A program made the translations under genes and the position numbers. Source: Halovenus carboxidivorans (GTDB lineage Archaea; Halobacteriota; Halobacteria; Halobacteriales; Haloarculaceae). Taken from it: a DNA stretch of 64,000 bases. Of this stretch, positions 6,575 to 17,517 are shown one piece after another (within the stretch, counting starts at the first letter, position 1; every line of letters starts with the position of its first letter). Where the stretch lies: positions 124,001 to 188,000 of the forward strand of contig NZ_WUUT01000005.1 of assembly GCF_009831575.1 (NCBI RefSeq). Direction: 5' to 3'. The notes below the pieces were generated by a model. The model was given only the letters and a program-made list of their open reading frames with translations. It did not search any database and was not told the origin of the DNA.

Positions 6575-7864
6575 TCAGTCGTCAGTCGCCGCGGCAGTTC
6601 CGACCTGCGCGTCGCTTTCGGCCTGGAGTTTGCCGATCTGCCGACGCAGCACCAGCACCGTGAGCAGGCCGACGACGAGCGCGCCGTTCATGATGTACAG
6701 CGCCTGCGTGTAGCCCCCGGTCGTCTCCAGAATGAACGACGCGATCTGCGGGCCGGCGACCCCGGCCAGCGCCCACGCCGTCAGGGCGTAGCCGTGGATC
6801 GCGCTGACCTCCTTGGTGCCGAACAGATCGCTCAGGTACGCCGGCAGACACGCGAATCCACCGCCGTAACAGGTAATCACGAGGAAGATCGTTCCCGCCA
6901 GGATCCAGACCCCAGCCAACTGCGGCATCACCAAGAAGGCGACGATCTGAATTCCCATGAACGCTCCGTAGACGGTCGTTCGGCCGATGTAATCCGAAAG
7001 CGTCGACCAGAAGATCCGGCCGCCACCGTTGAAGATGCCGATGTAGCCGGTGATGAACGCGGCCGTCGTGGCGGTCGCACCGGCGATCTCCTGGAGCATC
7101 GGTGAGGCGAACGCCAGCAGCATGATCCCCGCGGAGACGTTGATGAAGATGATCAACCAGACCATCCAGAACCGCGGGGAGGTCCGCGCCTCGGCGGCGG
7201 TGAGGTTATCCAGTCCCGGCAGCGCGCTGCGGGCCTCTTCCTGCGCGTTCTCCGTCGACTCCATGCCCTCCGGAACCCAGTCCTCCGGCGGCTTGGCGAG
7301 ATAGCTCGCTCCCGCGACCATGAGCACGAAGTACAGCGCCCCGAGCCCGTAAAATGCCACAGGGATACTGAACGTCTGGATCAGGTAGTTCCCCAGCGGG
7401 CCGGTGAGCAACGCACCCGCACCGAATCCCATGACTGCGAGACCGGTTGCCATACCTCGGCGGTCCGGGAACCACTCGACGAGCGTTCCGATGGGTGAGA
7501 TGTACCCGAGTCCGATGCCCATTCCCCCGAGAACACCGAACGTAGCGAGAAACAGCGGCAGGCTCCCGAGTTGGACGCTCAGCCCCGAACCGAGCATCCC
7601 GGCGCCGTAGAGCACCGCCGCGGCGAGCCCCGAGAGGCGAGGCCCGTACTTCTCGACGTACTTCCCGAGGAAGGCCGCGGTGAAGCCCAGGACGAACACG
7701 GCGATAGAGAACGCCAGCGTGACGCTCGACGTACTCCATCCCTGCGCCTCGTTAAGCGGTACTTGGTAGATGCTGTACGCGTAAATCCCCCCGATGGATA
7801 GGTGGATTGCAACCGCACCGACTGCAATCAGCCACCGGTTTTTCTCAGCCGTTGAAGATGGCAT
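6575..7864 (-). CDS. OFA-family MFS transporter (oxalate/formate antiporter-like)
   Basis: A 429-residue MFS protein with about 12 helices. It begins RWLIAVGAVAIHLSIGGIYAYSIYQVPL, the hallmark first helix of OxlT-type transporters. It also carries GLGYISPIGTLVEWFPDRRGMATGLAVMGFG and GGGRIFWSTLSDYIGR. OFA members exchange small carboxylates. It lies directly downstream of the formate dehydrogenase gene on the same strand, with 212 bases between them, so formate or a related acid is a reasonable but unproven substrate. The start at 7864 (MPSSTAEKN) is preferred; the frame extends to 7912 but those residues are unlike the family. Confidence 0.85.
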   Translation of the reverse strand: MPSSTAEKNRWLIAVGAVAIHLSIGGIYAYSIYQVPLNEAQGWSTSSVTLAFSIAVFVLGFTAAFLGKYVEKYGPRLSGLAAAVLYGAGMLGSGLSVQLGSLPLFLATFGVLGGMGIGLGYISPIGTLVEWFPDRRGMATGLAVMGFGAGALLTGPLGNYLIQTFSIPVAFYGLGALYFVLMVAGASYLAKPPEDWVPEGMESTENAQEEARSALPGLDNLTAAEARTSPRFWMVWLIIFINVSAGIMLLAFASPMLQEIAGATATTAAFITGYIGIFNGGGRIFWSTLSDYIGRTTVYGAFMGIQIVAFLVMPQLAGVWILAGTIFLVITCYGGGFACLPAYLSDLFGTKEVSAIHGYALTAWALAGVAGPQIASFILETTGGYTQALYIMNGALVVGLLTVLVLRRQIGKLQAESDAQVGTAAATDD

Positions 7865-8076
7865 ACACGCCTTTGATGAAGGAACGTCAAAAAAGCCTGT
7901 GTTAAGTGTCAAACCGTACTATTAAGGTTTCTTTATATTACCATGGGAATGAGTGACAACAGCAGGGTACCGGTGTCCGGGCCGGGCGGGATCTACTGTT
8001 CTCGAAGAGCAACCCACGGGTTACGAGCGACGACTGTGGCGAAAATACGGTCCCGAATCAGTGCGGCGACGGATGC

Positions 8077-11000
8077 TCAGTCGTCCGCGACGCCGTCACG
8101 GGGCTCCGACGGCACGTCGGGTCGCAGCGTCGACGCGTCCGCGTCGGGACCGAGCGGTTCGATCTTGACGCTCGAAACCTTGTACTCCGGAATTCCCGCC
8201 TGCGGGTCGAAGGTCTCGCCGGTGAGTTTGTTGACGGCACCGGCCGCGAAGTGCATCGGGATGAACAGCGTCCCTTCACCGACGCGGTCGGTGACCTGTG
8301 CCTTGACGACAATGTCGCCCCGCCGTGACTCGACGCGGACGTACTCCCCGTCAGCGATGCCGAGGTTGTCGGCGGTCTCGGGGTGGACCTCCACGAAGCT
8401 CTCGCCGACGTGGCTCATTAGCCCTTCGACGCGGCGGGTGATCTGGCCGGTGTGCCAGTGGTACAGCACCCGACCGGAGGTCAGCGTGAGCGGGTACTCC
8501 TCGTCGGGGAGTTCCCCGGGATGGCCGCCGTCGGCCGGGACGAACCGCGCCTTCCCGTCCTCGAAGTTGAAGTTGCCCTCCTCGTAGTCGTAGAGGTACG
8601 GCGTCCCGGGGTGGTCCTCGTCCCAGCAGGGCCACTGGAGACCGTGTTCCTCGCCCTCCTCCAGGCGGTCGTAGGTCACGCCGCCGTAGATGGGGGCCAC
8701 CGAGTTGATCTCGTCCATGATCTCGCGGGGGTGGTCGTAGTCCCAGTCGTAGCCGAGGCGACGGGCCAGTTCCTGGGTGATCTCCCAGTCCTGACGGGCG
8801 TCTCCCGGCGGTCGGGAAGTCGGACGGACCCGCTGGATGCGGCGCTCGGTGTTCGTGAATGTGCCGTGTTTCTCCGGCGAGGTGGCCGCCGGCAGGACGA
8901 CATCCGCGTGCTGGGCCGTTTCGGTCATGAAGATGTCCTGCACGACGAGGAAGTCCAGATCCGCCAGGGCCTCCTCGGCGTGCTGGATGTCGGGTTCGGA
9001 CAGCGCCGGATTCTCGCCGACGACGTACATCCCGCGGAGGTTGCCGTTGTGGGCCTCTTCGAGCATCTCCGGGACCTTCAGGCCGGGCTCCTCGGGCGGG
9101 CGCTCGCCCCACTCGGCCTCGAACTTCTCGGCGACTTCCTCGTCGGAGGGGTCCTGGTAGCCGGGGAGGCTGCCGGGGAGCGTGCCCATGTCGCCGCCAC
9201 CGCCCTGGACGTTGTTCTGGCCGCGGAACGGCGAGAGACCCGCGCCGGGCTTGCCGACCTGGCCCAACACGAGCGCGAGATCGGCCATCGCCAGCAGGTT
9301 CTCCGTCCCGGTGCTCTGTTGGGTCATCCCCATCGCCCAGCCGAAGACGACCTTGTCGGCTTCGGCCAGCGTCTCCGCCGCCGACGCGATTTCCTCCGGT
9401 GGGACGCCGGCGAGTTCCTCGACTTTCTCGGGGGTGAACGCCTGGACCTTCTCTTTCAGTTCCTCGAAGTTCTTCGTGTTTCGCTCGATGAACGCCTCGT
9501 CGTGGAGGTCGTGCTCGATGATGTACCGGATGAGCCCGTTGAGCCAGGTCACGTCGTATCCCGGCTTCGTCCGGGTGTACTGATCGGCGTGCTCCGCGAT
9601 ACCGATCTTCCGGGGGTCGAAGACGACGAGATCGGCGCCGTCGCGGACGTTCTGTTTGATGCGGGTCGCCAGCACCGGGTGCGACTCGGTCGTGTTCGAC
9701 CCGGAGATGAGGTAGGCGTCGGCCTCCCCGATGTCCTCGTTGATGCGGTTGGACATCGCGCCGTACCCAAGCGTCTGCTGGAGCGCGGCGACCGTCGAGG
9801 CGTGGCAGAGCCGAGCGCAGTTGTCGATGTTTTTCGTCCCGAGCACCTGCCGGGCGAACTTCTGGACGAGGTAAGCCTCCTCGTTGCTTCCCTTCGAGGA
9901 GGCGAGACAGCCGACTGCGTCGATCCCGTGTTCGTCCTGGATCTCCCGCAGGTTCTCCGCGACGTGATCGAGCGCCTCCTCCCAGGAGGCCGGCCGCAGG
10001 TCCCCGTCCTCGTCGCGCACAAGCGGGTCCGTCAGTCGCTGTTTGCTGTTCGCGAACTCGTGGCCGAACTTCCCTTTGACACACGTCGAGAAGTTATTCG
10101 CCGGGGCGTCGTCGGGATCATCGACCGGCACGACTCCCAGCGAGTCGTCGTCTTTCCCCCACATCTCGAACCGACAGCCGACCGCACAGAACCCGCAGGT
10201 GGTCTCCTGTTTGTCGATTTTGCCGAGTCGGTAGTCGCTGACGGCGTCGGCGATGTCGAACAGTCGTCCCTCGGGAAGCGTGTTGGCCGCGATTGCCTCG
10301 GCGGTGTGTTCGCCGGCCAGGAAGGCCTTTCTGCCGTACTCCTTCGCGAGGTCACCGGCCAGGCGCTTGGCGTTCGACATGTACGACGAGATACCGCCTT
10401 CCGCTTCGATCGGGTCCGGTTCGGCTTCGATACCCGTGCCGGGGCCGGGCTCGCGGTTCGGCGAGTCGGTGTCGTCGAGGGTCTCGACCGGTTCGTGTTC
10501 GATGACCGTGCCGATGGAGTTGCGCTGGGTGAACCCGGGCAGCGGGAGCGTGGCGGCCCCGCCGATTCCCTTCTCGGTCAGCGATCCGGTCGGACAGACC
10601 GTCGCGCAGTGGCCACAGGAGACACACTCCGAGTCGGCCATCGTCTCGGCGTCCGACTGGAATCCGATGCGGGTGTCCTCGCCGTGGCCCTCCATCCGGA
10701 GGACGCCCTCGACCTGTACGTCGTTACAGCCTTCGACACAGCGGTTACAGAGGATGCACTTGTTGCGGTCGATCTGGATGAACGACGACGTGTCGTCGAG
10801 CGGTTCGTACTCCGAGCGGTCGTCGAAGACGCCGTACCGCGGGTGGTTGACGCCCTCGCTGATCGCGGCCGACTGGAGTTCACACCGGCCGTTGCCGTTG
10901 CAGGTGGTACAGCGGAGGTTGTGATTCGAGAGAACCAGGTCGAGATTGACGCTTCTGCTCTCCTCGGCGCTGTCGGTGTCTGTCCGGACGTTCAGTCCGT

Positions 11001-11394
11001 CTTCCGCCGGGAACGAACAGGACGGCACCAGGCCGTGTTCGTCCGTCTCGACCATACAGGTCCGACAGGTGCTTCGGGGACCGATTTCGTCGGCGCAGTC
11101 GCCCCCCCTGTCGTAGTGACAGAGCGCGGGCACGTCCGTCTCCTCTGCCACGCCGTCGACTCCGGGGTCGACGGAGACGATGTCGTCGTCGAGGCGTTCG
11201 AGCGCGTCGATGACGGTCGAACCCGGTGGGAGACTCACCTCGTGGCCGTCGACGGTGATCGTCGTTCCGTCGTCGCCGGCCGTACCTACCGGTGGATCGT
11301 TCGCGGTCCCGGTCTCGAACTCCGCCGTTACCGGTGTCGATGGTCTGGGGTCTGTAACGTCTGGAACGTGTGGGAGTGATTTCTCGGTACTCAT
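8077..11394 (-). CDS. Formate dehydrogenase catalytic subunit with NuoG-like N-terminus
   Basis: An 1105-residue molybdopterin oxidoreductase, long because an electron-transfer module is fused in front. Residues 45-130 form a 2Fe-2S ferredoxin domain (Cys 92, 100, 110, 113 and 126). Residues 158-171 carry the His-Cys3 [4Fe-4S] motif. Residues 213-223 and 257-267 are two CxxCxxCxxxC clusters. The catalytic part starts at 400 with CGFCAVGC. The metal ligand is probably the Cys in NCARLCHAS near 530, so this is a Cys and not a selenocysteine enzyme. It oxidises formate to CO2 or runs in reverse, with bis-MGD Mo or W. Its stop-side neighbour is an OFA transporter. It overlaps the preceding NuoF-like gene by 4 bases (operon). 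Confidence 0.9.
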   Translation of the reverse strand: MSTEKSLPHVPDVTDPRPSTPVTAEFETGTANDPPVGTAGDDGTTITVDGHEVSLPPGSTVIDALERLDDDIVSVDPGVDGVAEETDVPALCHYDRGGDCADEIGPRSTCRTCMVETDEHGLVPSCSFPAEDGLNVRTDTDSAEESRSVNLDLVLSNHNLRCTTCNGNGRCELQSAAISEGVNHPRYGVFDDRSEYEPLDDTSSFIQIDRNKCILCNRCVEGCNDVQVEGVLRMEGHGEDTRIGFQSDAETMADSECVSCGHCATVCPTGSLTEKGIGGAATLPLPGFTQRNSIGTVIEHEPVETLDDTDSPNREPGPGTGIEAEPDPIEAEGGISSYMSNAKRLAGDLAKEYGRKAFLAGEHTAEAIAANTLPEGRLFDIADAVSDYRLGKIDKQETTCGFCAVGCRFEMWGKDDDSLGVVPVDDPDDAPANNFSTCVKGKFGHEFANSKQRLTDPLVRDEDGDLRPASWEEALDHVAENLREIQDEHGIDAVGCLASSKGSNEEAYLVQKFARQVLGTKNIDNCARLCHASTVAALQQTLGYGAMSNRINEDIGEADAYLISGSNTTESHPVLATRIKQNVRDGADLVVFDPRKIGIAEHADQYTRTKPGYDVTWLNGLIRYIIEHDLHDEAFIERNTKNFEELKEKVQAFTPEKVEELAGVPPEEIASAAETLAEADKVVFGWAMGMTQQSTGTENLLAMADLALVLGQVGKPGAGLSPFRGQNNVQGGGGDMGTLPGSLPGYQDPSDEEVAEKFEAEWGERPPEEPGLKVPEMLEEAHNGNLRGMYVVGENPALSEPDIQHAEEALADLDFLVVQDIFMTETAQHADVVLPAATSPEKHGTFTNTERRIQRVRPTSRPPGDARQDWEITQELARRLGYDWDYDHPREIMDEINSVAPIYGGVTYDRLEEGEEHGLQWPCWDEDHPGTPYLYDYEEGNFNFEDGKARFVPADGGHPGELPDEEYPLTLTSGRVLYHWHTGQITRRVEGLMSHVGESFVEVHPETADNLGIADGEYVRVESRRGDIVVKAQVTDRVGEGTLFIPMHFAAGAVNKLTGETFDPQAGIPEYKVSSVKIEPLGPDADASTLRPDVPSEPRDGVADD

Positions 11395-12959
11395 AGATTA
11401 TCTGAGCAGGTGCCGTGTCGGCAGGTTCCGTTCGCGTGTTCGGTGAACTGTTCGCCGAATCTGTCGAGCGCGGTCGTGACCGGTCGCGGGGCCGTCGCAC
11501 CGATCTGGCAGTTGGCAGTGGTTCGCATGACCCTGGCGAGTTCGGTGATCTTCTCGGCGTCGAACGTCCCGCCGTAGATGTCGCGGAGCAGTTCGGTCAG
11601 TTGTTGGGTTCCCTCGCGGCCGGGAACGCATCGTCCGCTGTTCTCCTCGGCCGCAAACTGAACGCGTTCGCCGGCCTCAGATACCGGACACCGACTCTCG
11701 CCGAGAATCTCGACGCCGCCCGTCAGTCCGAGACCCGCCTCGGTCAGGGCCTCTGCCGTGGGGTCGTAATCGAGCGTATCGGTCAACCCTCCGAAGATTC
11801 CGCCGACGCAGACCATCCCGACGCCGTCGGTCGGGGCGACGGCCTCACGCACCGCCGACAGCGAATCGTCGGCCGATAGCTCGACGACCGCGGGGTGGTC
11901 TACGTCGCCGGTCACGCTGAACAACCGTGTCGGCGCTCGCTCTCCGTCGGTCGGCTCTCCGTCGTCCGAACCCGGCGGCGATAGGTCGGGAAGTTCCCGC
12001 TGGAGCGCCGCCCGGGCCTGGAGCACGGTTCTGACGGAGTGGACGGCGGTCGGGCGGCCGTACAGCCCGTAGCTGGCGGGCGACGGGGGCTGGCGGCGTG
12101 GCTCGATTCGGTCGTTTCCCTCCAACACCTCCAGGGCGGCAGTCGGATCACCGGCCCGGTACTCCGGCGGCCCGACGGCGATTTTGGGCGTGATCGGGAG
12201 CGATTCGGCCAGTGCGTCTGCCGCCTCTTCGAGACGGGGCCGAACGGGAGCGTCCGCGTCGAGCAGGACGAGCACGTCAGTCGCGCCGACGAGCACGCCA
12301 GCCGTCACGGCCGCGTCGAGAACGGCGACGGTCGCACCGGCGAGCAGCGTCTCGTCGCTCCGGTGGCGCGGGTCGGTATCGTGTGCGTTCACCACGACGA
12401 CTGGCTCGCCGTCCGTCTCGCGAATCGTGTCCCACGCCTCGGTGACGGGTGTCTCCGCCACCGCGTCACCGCGGCCGCGTCCGAGAATCGGGGTCTCCAG
12501 CCGCGTCTCGGCGGTCACGCGCTCCGAGACCAGCGTCCAGTCTGCCGGAGCGACCGGGTTCGCCCAGCCGCACTTCGCGAGGAGTCGGCGGTCGCCGACA
12601 GCGAGCGGTCCCTCGTCCGGAACCGGGAGCGTCCCGTCGTCTTCGTGTTCGACCACCGCGAACGGCTCGAAATCGGTCGACTCGCCGGCTTCGGCCGCAC
12701 GGACGAGGTCGGTCGCCTGTGAGGCGTCCACGGCGGCGTACATCCGAGTCTCGCCGTCTGTGCTGACCAGTGCCAGCGGTTCGTAGGCGGTGATCCCCGT
12801 CGGGCCAGTCGCTCTGACCGCCACGTCGTCTGCGACCTCCTCGGCCGCGCTGAGTACGTCCGTCGCGTCCCCCCGATCCGGCCCCGAAGAGAATCTGATG
12901 AGCGTCTCCGCAGTCGATTCGCTCGACGGCTTGTCGTGCATACTTGGAAATCCTGTCAT
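11391..12959 (-). CDS. NuoF-like subunit with degenerate cofactor motifs
   Basis: A 522-residue protein, aligned by eye to NuoF/diaphorase. ILGRGRGDAV sits at the FMN-binding GRGGAGFPTG position, NAHDTDP at NADEGDP, RAGDPTAALEVLEG at GEETALLESLEG, and QPPSPASYGLYGRPTAV matches well. An SLBB-like region spans about 345-415. The C-terminal cluster motif reads NSGRCVPGREG, so only Cys444 of three remains, although the later Cys484 is kept. It may therefore be structural or bind a different cofactor. It begins the formate dehydrogenase operon. ATG 12959 is supported by a TTATATA box 25 bases upstream; ATG 12941 is possible. Confidence 0.8.
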   Translation of the reverse strand: MTGFPSMHDKPSSESTAETLIRFSSGPDRGDATDVLSAAEEVADDVAVRATGPTGITAYEPLALVSTDGETRMYAAVDASQATDLVRAAEAGESTDFEPFAVVEHEDDGTLPVPDEGPLAVGDRRLLAKCGWANPVAPADWTLVSERVTAETRLETPILGRGRGDAVAETPVTEAWDTIRETDGEPVVVVNAHDTDPRHRSDETLLAGATVAVLDAAVTAGVLVGATDVLVLLDADAPVRPRLEEAADALAESLPITPKIAVGPPEYRAGDPTAALEVLEGNDRIEPRRQPPSPASYGLYGRPTAVHSVRTVLQARAALQRELPDLSPPGSDDGEPTDGERAPTRLFSVTGDVDHPAVVELSADDSLSAVREAVAPTDGVGMVCVGGIFGGLTDTLDYDPTAEALTEAGLGLTGGVEILGESRCPVSEAGERVQFAAEENSGRCVPGREGTQQLTELLRDIYGGTFDAEKITELARVMRTTANCQIGATAPRPVTTALDRFGEQFTEHANGTCRHGTCSDNL

Positions 12960-12987: not shown

Positions 12988-13106
12988 CCATACACCGTGA
13001 TTACGAGGTTTCGTTTTTGTATCTTCCTGAAGAGCGTTGACACGTGTTGGCACGGTCTCGGCCCGCGAAGCCAAGGCGTTTAGTCGCTGCCGGGCGAGTG
13101 TACGGT

Positions 13107-13379
13107 ATGGCTAACCCACGGTTTCGAGAGGTGCGTTCCGAAGCGGCATCGGCTATCGAGACAGGTGAGTTGTACTCGCTCTATACGGGGCTAGTTCACG
13201 AGGACGGCCGTCACGAGTACTACTTCGGTAACGATACGGAGTCGGCCGAAGAACTCAGAGAGAACGCCGCGGTTCATCTGGGAATGATGCTCCGCGTGCT
13301 CGCGGACCGCTCCGAGAGCGACCTCGACGAACTCGCGGACCTCGCCGTCGAGCGCGCAGAGGAGATGGATCTGCGGTAG
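13107..13379 (+). CDS. Small conserved-looking haloarchaeal protein, unknown function
   Basis: A 90-residue acidic soluble protein: MANPRFREVRSEAASAIETG, then YSLYTGLVHEDGRHEYYFGND, then a helical C-terminus with LADLAVERAEEMDLR. No domain is recognised. Start 13107 is chosen over the longer frame from 13044, whose extra residues are Arg-rich and look non-coding. A GTTTAGTC element lies about 28 bases upstream. It is divergent from the formate dehydrogenase operon and 183 bases ahead of the AOR-family gene; no functional link to either can be shown. Confidence 0.65.
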   Translation: MANPRFREVRSEAASAIETGELYSLYTGLVHEDGRHEYYFGNDTESAEELRENAAVHLGMMLRVLADRSESDLDELADLAVERAEEMDLR

Positions 13380-13562: not shown

Positions 13563-15344
13563 GTGAAGATGCTCGAAACACTGCCCGAAATCGTCAGGGT
13601 CGACCTCTCGGAGCGGTCGGTGAGTCGGGAGCCGGTTCCGGAGTCGTGGCGACGGCGGTTCGTCGGCGGCAAAGGACTCGCAGCGCGGTATCTGTACGAC
13701 GAACTCGACGCCGGCGTCGACCCGCTCGGTCCCGAGAACGCGATTCTGTTGTTCAGGGGACCGCTGACGGGGTTGTTACCCGGGGAGAACCGGTACGTCG
13801 TCGTCACGAAGTCGCCGCTGACCGGTACCTTCCTCGACTCCTACGCCGGCGGGGCGTTCCCCGGGCGGTTCGCCGGTGCGCTCGGTGACGCCGCGGGGAT
13901 TCTCGTGACGGGGCAGGCAGACGAACCGGTCGAGATCGTCGTCGCAGACGGTTCTGTCGGGATCGAATCGACGGATCTCTGGGGGGCCGAAACCGACGCT
14001 ACCGCGGAGGCACGACCCGACGCGGCAGTCGCCTGTATCGGCCCGGCGGGCGAGTCACAGGTCTCATACGCGACGCTCGCATCTGACGGCGGCGAGCACC
14101 ACGCCGGCCGTGGCGGTGCCGGTGCGGTGATGGGCGCGAAACGGTGCAAGGCGGTCGTCGTCCGCGGTGAGTCACCGAGCGGGCTGTCCGCGCTCAGAGA
14201 GCGATACGCCGAGCAGTTCGAGGCCTCGGGAACCGGACAGTGGCTCTCCGCTGGCGGGACCGTCGAGACGGTCGATTTCACCGACGAAGTGGGAATCCTC
14301 CCGACCCGCGGCTGGCAGGAGTCACGGTTCGAGGACGCCGTCGACATCGGCGTCGAAGCGATCCGCGAGCTGGCGACCGAGCGCGAACACCCCGACCGTG
14401 ACCAGCAGGGCGATTTCCGCGTCGAGACAGACGCGGGTGAGACGGTCACCCGGGGAGCCGCCTCGCTGTCGCTCGGGGCCGGGCTGGGAATCGGTGACGC
14501 GGAAGCGGTCGCGGAGCTCGGCGGGCTCTGTGATCGACTCGGACTCGATCTCGTCAGTACTGGGAGTGCCATCGCGTGGGCAATCCGCGCCAGCCAGGCC
14601 GGGCTGCTCGACGAGGAGTACGAGTTCGGAGACGTGGACACGGCCCGCTCGCTCGTCCGAGCGATCGCCACCCGCGACGGCGACACGGGGGACCGTCTCG
14701 CCGACGGCGTCGCGGCGGCGGTGGCGGCAACCGGCGGCGACGAGTTCGTCCCGACTGTCAAGTCGATGGAGCTCCCCTCCTACGATCCGCGGGGGGCAGA
14801 GAGCATGGCCCTCGCCTACGCCACGAGTGACCGTGGCGGCTGTCACAGGCGTGCCCGGCCGGTCGAGCGTGCCGTCTTCGAGGAGTGGAGCGTCGAGCGG
14901 ATCGTCGACACCGTCATTACCGAGCAAAACGAGCGTGCCGTCCTCTGGAGTCTGATCGTCGACGACTTCGTCGGGGACGTGTTCGAAGATCTCGGTGAGG
15001 AGTGGCTCGACGTCGTCGGACTCGAGACGGCCGGTTCGCTGGCGACAGTGGGTGAACGGATCTGGACGCTGACCAGGCTGTTCAACGTCCGCGAGGGGTT
15101 CGACAGGGCCGACGACGAACTCCCGGCGGCGCTCCAGCGACCCGTCGCCTCCGGGCCGAACGAGGGATCGGTGGTCGATTCCGGTCGGTTCGAGCGAATG
15201 CTCGACGAGTACTACGCGGCCCGCGGGTGGAGCGAAAACGGCATTCCGACCGCGCAGACCGTGGCCCGACTCGATCTCACGGATGCACTCGACGGGGAGA
15301 CGCCCGTCGCGGGGTCGGCGTCAGGGTCGGAGGAGTCGTCCTGA
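13563..15344 (+). CDS. AOR-family (aldehyde:ferredoxin oxidoreductase) protein lacking iron-sulfur cysteines
   Basis: A 593-residue member of the tungstopterin AOR family. Family segments are RGPLTGLLPGENRYVVVTKSP (63-84), HAGRGGAGAVMGAKRCKAVV, GLDLVSTGSAIAWA (327-340), and LPSYDPRGAESMALAYATSDRGGCH (404-428). Known enzymes bind [4Fe-4S] by CxxCxxxC near residue 280 plus a Cys in a DxxGLC motif. Here the first region reads TEREHPDRDQQGD and the second WSLIVDD, so all four ligands and part of the second pterin motif are absent. The only Cys are at 158, 195, 323 and 427. The start is GTG 13563 or ATG 13569. It could be an inactive, pterin-only or regulatory homologue. Confidence 0.85.
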   Translation: MKMLETLPEIVRVDLSERSVSREPVPESWRRRFVGGKGLAARYLYDELDAGVDPLGPENAILLFRGPLTGLLPGENRYVVVTKSPLTGTFLDSYAGGAFPGRFAGALGDAAGILVTGQADEPVEIVVADGSVGIESTDLWGAETDATAEARPDAAVACIGPAGESQVSYATLASDGGEHHAGRGGAGAVMGAKRCKAVVVRGESPSGLSALRERYAEQFEASGTGQWLSAGGTVETVDFTDEVGILPTRGWQESRFEDAVDIGVEAIRELATEREHPDRDQQGDFRVETDAGETVTRGAASLSLGAGLGIGDAEAVAELGGLCDRLGLDLVSTGSAIAWAIRASQAGLLDEEYEFGDVDTARSLVRAIATRDGDTGDRLADGVAAAVAATGGDEFVPTVKSMELPSYDPRGAESMALAYATSDRGGCHRRARPVERAVFEEWSVERIVDTVITEQNERAVLWSLIVDDFVGDVFEDLGEEWLDVVGLETAGSLATVGERIWTLTRLFNVREGFDRADDELPAALQRPVASGPNEGSVVDSGRFERMLDEYYAARGWSENGIPTAQTVARLDLTDALDGETPVAGSASGSEESS

Positions 15345-16077: not shown

Positions 16078-16818
16078 ATGGACCTTCTCGACGCGGTAGA
16101 CGCCAGATCGGGGGTCGTCTGCGTCGTCGGCGCCGGCGGGAAGAAGACGATGCTGTACACGCTGGCCGGTCGGGCCGCCGACGAGGGGCTTCGGAGCGTC
16201 GTCACGGCGACGGTCCGGATCCCCATCTTCGACGAACAGGTGAGCGGGGTCGTCGCGACCGACGATCCGGTCGAAGCGTTGCGTGACGCCGACAGCTATC
16301 CGGTCGGGGCCGTTGCGGGGCGGGACGGAGAGACCAGATACCGGGGGTACGATACCGCCGTGGTCGACGACCTCGGGCGGGCAGGTGTCGCGGACGTGGT
16401 GCTGGCCAAAGCCGACGGCGCCAGGACGCGGGAGTTCAAAGCCCCCGGCGACCAGGAGCCACAGATTCCGGAGACGACGGAGACCGTGCTCCCCATCGCG
16501 AGCGTCCACGCGGTCGGCGAACCGCTCGGCGAGGATGTCGTGCACCGTCCCGAACGGGTCGCCTCGATCACCGGACTCAGCCCGGGCGAGGAGATCACCA
16601 CCTCAGATGTGGGAGCCGTGCTCGCCAGCCCCGCGGGAGGACTCAAACACGTTCCCGACGGCGCGACCACGGTTCCCGTCCTCAACAAGGTCGACGACGA
16701 CGGGCTGGCCGAGGTTGGTCGTGAGATTGCGAGGGACGTTCTCGACCGTGCGGACGTGCCACGAGTCGTCCTCACGAGCCTGCTGGCGGACGACCCGGTC
16801 GTCGACGTGATCGAGTAG
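16078..16818 (+). CDS. yqeC: YqeC-like selenium/molybdenum cofactor accessory protein
   Basis: A 246-residue P-loop protein. The nucleotide-binding loop is VVGAGGKKTMLYTLA at residues 15-30. It also has VVTATVRIPIF, VLAKADGARTREFKAPGDQEPQIP and a C-terminal VPVLNKVDDDGLAE (NKxD-like). This pattern is that of YqeC, an accessory factor linked in bacteria to selenium-dependent molybdenum hydroxylases. It is convergent with mobA and close to the formate dehydrogenase and AOR genes, which supports a Mo/W enzyme maturation role. The selenium link is not supported by anything else in this window. Confidence 0.8.
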   Translation: MDLLDAVDARSGVVCVVGAGGKKTMLYTLAGRAADEGLRSVVTATVRIPIFDEQVSGVVATDDPVEALRDADSYPVGAVAGRDGETRYRGYDTAVVDDLGRAGVADVVLAKADGARTREFKAPGDQEPQIPETTETVLPIASVHAVGEPLGEDVVHRPERVASITGLSPGEEITTSDVGAVLASPAGGLKHVPDGATTVPVLNKVDDDGLAEVGREIARDVLDRADVPRVVLTSLLADDPVVDVIE

Positions 16819-16830
16819 CCCCACCGAGAA

Positions 16831-17445
16831 TCAGGACTCGAACTGCTTTGCGGCCCGCTCGAACTCCTCGCGCGTGTTGATGTTCTCGAAGCTCTCCGTG
16901 GAGCCAACCGCTTCGATCTCCTCGCTCCCGACGACGACGTGTTCGATATCCTCGAGCGGTGCAACGATCCGTGGATCCCCCTGCGCGAGCGCCCGCTCAC
17001 AGGCCGCCCGCATCGCGTCTGCGCGGTAGACCGCCTGGGTGGTCTGAAACCAGCCGTCGTCGAGCCGCGGGACAGCGCCGTCGTGTCCTTCGGCCCGGTC
17101 GAATAGCATCGAGATGACACCGGACTGGACGAAGGGCATGTCGCAGGCGACGACGGCGGCGTACTCTCCTTCGACATCGGCGAGCCCGTTGCGGATGCCG
17201 GCGACGGGGCCGCGGTCCTCCTCCTCGTCGAGCGCGTACCTGACCGGGAGGGGATACCCCGCGAGTGCGTCTCGGATGCTCGCTCGCTGGTCCTCGCGGC
17301 AGTTGACAACCAGTTCGTCGACGACCGGCCGCAGACGGTCGGCGACGCGGCGGAGCATCGGCGTGCCGGCCAGTTCTGCGGTGGCCTTGTCGCTCTCGCC
17401 GAACCGCGTCGAGTGTCCGCCCGCGACGATGACGCCGCTTCGCAT
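16831..17445 (-). CDS. mobA: Molybdenum cofactor guanylyltransferase
   Basis: A 204-residue nucleotidyltransferase that attaches GMP to molybdopterin to give MGD, which the nearby formate dehydrogenase needs. Motifs are the start VIVAGGHSTRFGESDKATAEL (LAGGxSxRxGxDK-like), the EDRGPVAGIRNGL loop, the metal-binding ACDMPF, and FENINTREEF near the end. Start 17445 (MRSGVIVAGG) puts the glycine-rich loop at the N-terminus as usual; the frame to 17481 adds nothing family-like. It is convergent with yqeC, 12 bases between stops. Confidence 0.87.
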   Translation of the reverse strand: MRSGVIVAGGHSTRFGESDKATAELAGTPMLRRVADRLRPVVDELVVNCREDQRASIRDALAGYPLPVRYALDEEEDRGPVAGIRNGLADVEGEYAAVVACDMPFVQSGVISMLFDRAEGHDGAVPRLDDGWFQTTQAVYRADAMRAACERALAQGDPRIVAPLEDIEHVVVGSEEIEAVGSTESFENINTREEFERAAKQFES

Positions 17446-17517
17446 ACCCGGCCGTTCGAGGCCGGCACGAATGAATCTCACGTCGCGCCGTTCCGAAGAG
17501 CGGTGCTCGCCGTCCGG

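Follow-up and report, generated by a model that had tools for sequence, protein, structure and literature searches.

What can a protein of the AOR family still do once it has lost its [4Fe-4S] cluster? The question is raised by an ORF in a 64,000-nt stretch of the Halovenus carboxidivorans genome (hereafter the window), whose product, here named AOR*, had been characterized in a preliminary description as lacking every cluster ligand and having lost the second pterin motif, and had been proposed to be a non-redox paralogue, a pterin carrier or a subunit of another enzyme. According to a recent review, the W-bispterin of every tungstoenzyme is accompanied by one or more Fe4S4 clusters close by (PMC12096430), and a 2026 survey of 92 WOR clades reported very little variation in the residues holding both cofactors (PMC13328260); a conserved and widespread clade without any cluster ligand breaks this pairing rule. 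Members of the AOR* clade nevertheless carry an ordinary aldehyde ferredoxin oxidoreductase annotation, and plasmid-borne copies in public records appear as "aldehyde ferredoxin oxidoreductase C-terminal domain-containing protein". Neither a cluster-less WOR clade nor an AOR* gene in haloarchaea was found in the literature searched, subscription papers being mostly outside its scope.

The AOR* frame starts with GTG, is open from end to end and matches the AFOR_N and AFOR_C domains along their entire length (E 1e-60 and 7e-88, respectively); no signal peptide precedes the AOR domain, with which the protein begins. The family blocks LTGLLPGENRY, HAGRGGAGAVMG, GLDLVSTG, YDPRG and SDRGGCH are all present, as initially described. 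An AlphaFold2 model, confident across nearly the full length (pLDDT 94.5, pTM 0.94), was superposed on Pyrococcus furiosus FOR (1b25, Z 50.2), P. furiosus AOR (1aor, Z 49.3) and Acetomicrobium WOR1 (9mqx), with Z of 49-50 over 565-576 residues and an rmsd of about 2 A for the three structures. The predicted fold is thus that of a complete AOR, shared with these enzymes over about 570 residues at 32-33% identity, and the solved structures closest to AOR* by sequence are likewise AOR-family enzymes. By fold, domain content and phylogeny AOR* is a member of the AOR/WOR (WorL) family. Contigs C1 and C2 of the same genome (G000) carry two further AOR genes, both of which keep the Cys motif. The coordinates of AOR*, its altered or retained sites and the neighbouring genes are collected in Table 1.

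Table 1. Genes around AOR* and sites within it; equivalent residues are given in Pyrococcus numbering after the equals sign.
Feature	Coordinates	Strand	Evidence
MFS monocarboxylate transporter, adjoins FdhA	6575..7912	-	NF049980 399.9 bits, cut-off 320
FdhA: NuoG-like N-terminus and formate dehydrogenase alpha, CH motif (DNCARLCHAST)	8077..11394	-	TIGR01591 835 bits, cut-off 666
NuoF-like diaphorase subunit (FdhB), overlaps FdhA	11391..12959	-	PF01512 and PF10589
Small protein, 111 aa, no family match, directly upstream of AOR*, same strand	13044..13379	+	Present at 7/52 related loci
AOR*, cluster-less AOR-family protein, 593 aa	13563..15344	+	ORF; AFOR_N and AFOR_C; AlphaFold2; structure comparison
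T233 (= T243), second-shell residue retained	14259..14261	+	49/49
Residues 274-284 (REHPDRDQQGD), CxxCxxxC site	14382..14414	+	Alignment to 1AOR and relatives; ligand Cys in 0/49 clade members
Residues 297-299 (RGA), site of E311-Y312-E313 of the proposed proton relay	14451..14459	+	R 48/49, G 49/49, A/G/S 49/49
Y407 (= Y427), second-shell residue retained	14781..14783	+	Y 46/49, F 3/49
Residues 423-430 (DRGGCHRR), retained H428 (= H448), clade-specific R429	14829..14852	+	H 49/49, R429 49/49
Residues 462-468 (WSLIVDD), DxxGLC site: W462 = D489, D467 = C494 (fourth ligand)	14946..14966	+	Alignment
YqeC, molybdoenzyme accessory protein	16078..16818	+	TIGR03172 180.8 bits, cut-off 73
MobA-like nucleotidyltransferase	16831..17481	-	PF12804 E 5e-35; TIGR02665 105.8 bits, below cut-off 151.9

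The loss of the cluster was verified by an alignment of AOR* with 1AOR and further canonical AORs. All four [4Fe-4S] ligands are absent: C288, C291 and C295 are deleted or replaced within a shorter, Asp-rich loop without Cys, and C494 has become Asp467. The same holds for the whole clade, as 0/4 ligand Cys were found in 49/49 sequences, with D467 and W462 each in 49/49, while position 494 is Cys in 32/32 sister, Dehalococcoidia and other AORs. A frameshift or misassembly was rejected, because the 49 independent sequences carry the identical replacement. The relocation of the ligands to another part of the protein was rejected as well: AOR* has four Cys only (158, 195, 323 and 427), mutually distant in sequence, so that the missing ligands are, judging from these distances, probably not supplied from elsewhere; the clade-invariant ones are C158, C323 and C427, two of which also occur in cluster-bearing AORs. 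One of the cluster ligands in this family may be an Asp instead of a Cys, as in P. furiosus WOR5/ASOR (6x1o; 3 Cys + 1 Asp; PMC12096430), but that enzyme keeps three Cys and its cluster, whereas AOR* keeps none. Class I WORs are defined by a single WorL with a [4Fe-4S] cluster and the use of ferredoxin (PMC13328260), and AOR* falls outside this definition as its ligands are absent. Haloferax volcanii WOR83 (9q1t) and the halophile clade 83 WORs share family and organism class with AOR*, but are ordinary Class I WORs, with a cluster by definition (PMC13328260), and match it more weakly. Ordinary electron transfer to ferredoxin by AOR* is implausible with the ligands absent, in agreement with the preliminary description.

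The 49 AOR* sequences that we read come from more than 30 genera and form one Halobacteriales clade, monophyletic with SH-aLRT 100 and nested inside the AOR/WOR family (SH-aLRT 99-100). Its sister is a small clade of cluster-bearing haloarchaeal AORs (L099, L101, L102 and L108; 41-46% identity to AOR*) with CYxCPVACG-type motifs, and the next branch consists of Dehalococcoidia AORs, all with clusters. The sister clade shares with AOR* the HHAGRGG motif, which is older and common to both, and an aromatic residue at position 489, but differs in keeping C-x2-C-x3-C, C494 and E-Y-E, and in having no FdhA nearby at the four loci examined (0/4). Plasmid-borne sequences from Natrialba magadii and Natronorubrum aibiense (41-42% identity) are probable sister-clade members. 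A phylum-wide search returned no AOR*-level match outside Halobacteriales, and the nearest match there (G574) and five other sequences that were read all have the Cys motif. The relatives returned by a contig scan all lie outside haloarchaea and keep the Cys motif wherever the motif region is readable. Pairwise dN/dS between close AOR* pairs was mostly 0.08-0.24, a sign of purifying selection and therefore of a gene that is maintained and not decaying.

A second loss, overlooked in the preliminary description, accompanies that of the cluster. The second-shell residues Glu313, His448, Tyr427 and Thr243 are implicated in AOR catalysis, and a proton relay Glu313-His448, extended by Tyr312, has been proposed (PMC12096430). 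In AOR*, E311-Y312-E313 is replaced by R297-G298-A299, whereas the sister clade keeps E-Y-E in 4/4; the loss of E313 and Y312 maps to the same branch as that of the cluster and extends across the whole AOR* clade. The full second-shell set of aldehyde-oxidizing members (T243, E313, Y427, H448) is consequently incomplete, with A, G or S in place of E313 in 49/49. In comparison with 1aor, 1b25 and 9mqx, AOR* has no cluster ligand, has E313, Y312 and D489 replaced and is tied to FDH and YqeC genes, but it keeps T243, Y427 and H448 together with the cofactor-site residues R76, G95 and D343, so that most residues of the putative W/Mo-bispterin site are conserved. Besides the cluster ligands and E311-Y312-E313, the positions fixed in AOR* and differing in the sister include N260 and S273, each replaced by Gly, I449, replaced by Arg, and a few others. 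Electron exit and proton relay were thus lost together on one branch, with most of the cofactor cradle kept.

The loss of the second pterin motif was rejected as a new event. W462 does stand at the position of D489, as had been noticed, but the change predates the loss of the cluster, since cluster-bearing relatives, both in the sister clade and in Dehalococcoidia, already carry F, Y or W there.

The genomic context points to formate dehydrogenase (FDH). In the window, a cluster of about 9.4 kb comprises FdhA, the NuoF-like subunit, the 111-aa protein, AOR*, a PNPOx-like protein, YqeC and the MobA-like protein. Across 52 AOR* loci, with FdhA counted within about 9.5 kb, the neighbours were FdhA (31 loci), YqeC (25), an HdrA/FlpD-like protein (18), MobA (17), a TorD-like chaperone (13), DUF7124 (11), DUF7405 (10), a dimethylglycine-dehydrogenase-like protein (8), a formaldehyde-dehydrogenase-like protein (6) and BCCT (5); TupC matches, partly generic ABC ATPases, were excluded as evidence. 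The neighbouring FdhA proteins are of three kinds: fused to NuoG (about 1105 aa), stand-alone (703-757 aa; one example scored 737 bits with TIGR01591) and of the Tat-signal type (about 1070-1120 aa; 430-450 bits, below the TIGR01591 cut-off). The CH motif of Cys-FDHs was present in all the examples read. Common to the three architectures is the formate-active Mo/W site, whereas their electron acceptors differ.

To the linkage corresponds a co-occurrence across genomes. AOR* is present in 205/392 Halobacteriales genomes, a count in which the status of most genomes was assigned by score and not by motif reading, and from which five genomes with the sister only (G071, G226, G306, G365 and G382) were excluded. 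YqeC was found in 203 of the 205 AOR* genomes, the two exceptions being 77% and 85% complete, and in 52/187 genomes without AOR*. FdhA at E<1e-100 was found in 191/205 versus 82/187, respectively. The remaining 14 AOR* genomes hold more divergent FdhA homologues, often close to AOR*, which were recovered by a TIGR01591 re-search; the resulting 205/205 is biased, because most genomes without AOR* did not go through this second search, and the strict figures are the fair ones. Within the 24 mixed genera YqeC occurs in 129/130 genomes with AOR* and 38/72 without it (CMH p 2e-13), and the within-genus association of FdhA with AOR*, by the strict count, gave a CMH p of 0.007. In the genus of the window, the three AOR* genomes all have FdhA and YqeC, while of the three without AOR* none has YqeC and two have no FdhA. 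AOR* hence shows towards FDH both the linkage (31/52 loci) and the co-occurrence (191/205, strict) expected of an FDH maturation factor, and we consider the AOR*-FDH link well supported.

YqeC, described as a marker or accessory of selenium-dependent molybdenum hydroxylases (PMC2276186), is here tied to formate dehydrogenase in haloarchaea. It is present in 255/392 Halobacteriales genomes, often beside FDH, with or without AOR*; as it adjoins FdhA also in genomes without AOR*, it is tied to FDH independently.

The maturation of these FDHs is itself a question. In Methylorubrum, W-FDH maturation involves MoeA1-MobB, guanylylation by MobA, and sulfuration and delivery by FdhD (PMC13197769). FdhD (PF02634) was found in 0/60 haloarchaeal genomes, with and without AOR*, most of which carry FdhA-like genes, while the control search was positive in eight reference genomes, among them those of E. 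coli and Methanocaldococcus. It therefore appears that FDH maturation in haloarchaea proceeds in the absence of FdhD, by a route other than the textbook one. AOR* has no PF02634 match and no homology to FdhD, the FDH sulfurtransferase and delivery factor; the role proposed for it would be analogous, namely to make the cofactor competent in FdhA.

The simplest account of these data is a role in FDH maturation, because the cofactor cradle is under selection, the electron exit and the proton relay are lost, and FDHs of varied architecture are linked to the gene together with YqeC and MobA. We tentatively favor, at somewhat less than even chances, the view of AOR* as a retired AOR holding or delivering Mo/W-bispterin for the maturation of FDH. 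AOR* would be a descendant of a tungsten aldehyde oxidoreductase turned FDH accessory, and could hold Mo/W-bispterin without aldehyde turnover, because fold and most site residues are kept while [4Fe-4S] and E313/Y312 are lost. It might act with YqeC and MobA as a scaffold, donor or insertion aid, readying or delivering the pterin cofactor to FdhA where FdhD is absent. The mechanism is one that we infer, and with it pterin binding, physical interaction, the direction of cofactor transfer and the identity of the metal. The broader proposition, a tungsten oxidoreductase repurposed as bispterin carrier or insertion factor within an FdhD-free maturation route (AOR*, YqeC and MobA) in haloarchaea, is more doubtful. 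Among the roles initially listed, both the non-redox paralogue and the pterin carrier would fit the losses, and the carrier for FDH now leads by virtue of the association of the gene with FDH, YqeC and MobA. The tie gives AOR* a testable function and raises the issue of FDH maturation in FdhD-free haloarchaea.

This reading has its weak points. About 80 genomes carry an FdhA-like gene without AOR*, which is therefore not required for every haloarchaeal FDH, and some FDH-bearing genomes also have no YqeC. AOR enzymes contain nucleotide-free bis-MPT and FDHs contain bis-MGD, so that a transfer from AOR* to FDH would need MobA in between. At some loci AOR* stands with dimethylglycine dehydrogenase, ETF or formaldehyde dehydrogenase instead of FdhA, making a different role in C1 metabolism possible. 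The retention of T243, Y427 and H448, which are catalytic in AORs, is more than a pure carrier needs.

These last two points bring in the main rival, that AOR* is still an enzyme, using Mo/W-bispterin in a redox-neutral C1 reaction (a hydration, hydrolysis or isomerization around formaldehyde, formate or a C1 adduct) for which no electron exit is necessary. Acetylene hydratase provides the precedent, showing that tungstopterin enzymes can be non-redox. The clade-specific invariant residues R297, G298, R429 and D467 suggest a site rebuilt and not emptied, and at several loci the neighbours make up a C1 chain (BCCT transporter, dimethylglycine dehydrogenase/ETF, GSH-independent formaldehyde dehydrogenase-like protein, FDH). 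Yet a candidate missing step is not evident, and the link to YqeC and MobA suggests cofactor biosynthesis over a substrate; we regard such an enzyme as unlikely, if still worth serious weight.

Lower in probability is a structural or regulatory pseudo-enzyme without cofactor, in a heteromer with FDH or a canonical AOR paralogue. Gene duplicates often become pseudo-subunits, and the genome does hold the two other AOR paralogues; but canonical AORs adjoin AOR* only at occasional loci (e.g., L076, L077 and L080), no partner is constant across the varying FDH architectures, and the cofactor-site residues other than E313, Y312 and D489 are conserved as in active AORs, which together make this proposal improbable. 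The fixed subunit of another enzyme suggested at the outset is weakened likewise, because the neighbouring FDHs are of three architectures, one of them Tat-exported, and AOR* is signal-less.

A redox enzyme that passes its electrons to a flavin, a thiol or the cluster of a docking partner, or transfers them directly, appears quite improbable. Proteins rich in Fe-S are common in the neighbourhood (HdrA/FlpD-like, NuoF-like, Fe-S beta subunit) and partner subunits vary widely in the WOR family (PMC13328260), but the electron-transfer neighbours of AOR* change from locus to locus, the relay residues E313 and Y312 were lost on the very branch of the cluster loss, and the FDH type with a Tat signal is for that reason not a permanent cytosolic partner. 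A decaying pseudogene or sequencing artefact, which the loss of catalytic and ligand residues might have suggested, is already refuted and deserves practically no credence in view of the open frame, the same replacements in 49/49, the low dN/dS and the confident, complete fold.

Other genes recur around AOR*. The HdrA/FlpD-like Fe-S protein (~710 aa; PF02662 plus ferredoxin domains) is found beside FdhA and AOR* at L060, L061, L083, L084, L090, L091 and other loci, in hosts that are not methanogens. The MFS transporter of the window passed the L-lactate equivalog cut-off, and oxalate/formate antiporter models matched it below cut-off. At several loci a small protein of no family (about 76-156 aa as called) lies between FdhB and AOR* or beside FdhB. 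Finally, families of no assigned function recur in FDH/AOR* clusters, exemplified by L084:10802-11575 (DUF7124), L072:5840-7171 (DUF7405), L060:7667-8047 and L091:8080-8349, and are candidates for the same process.
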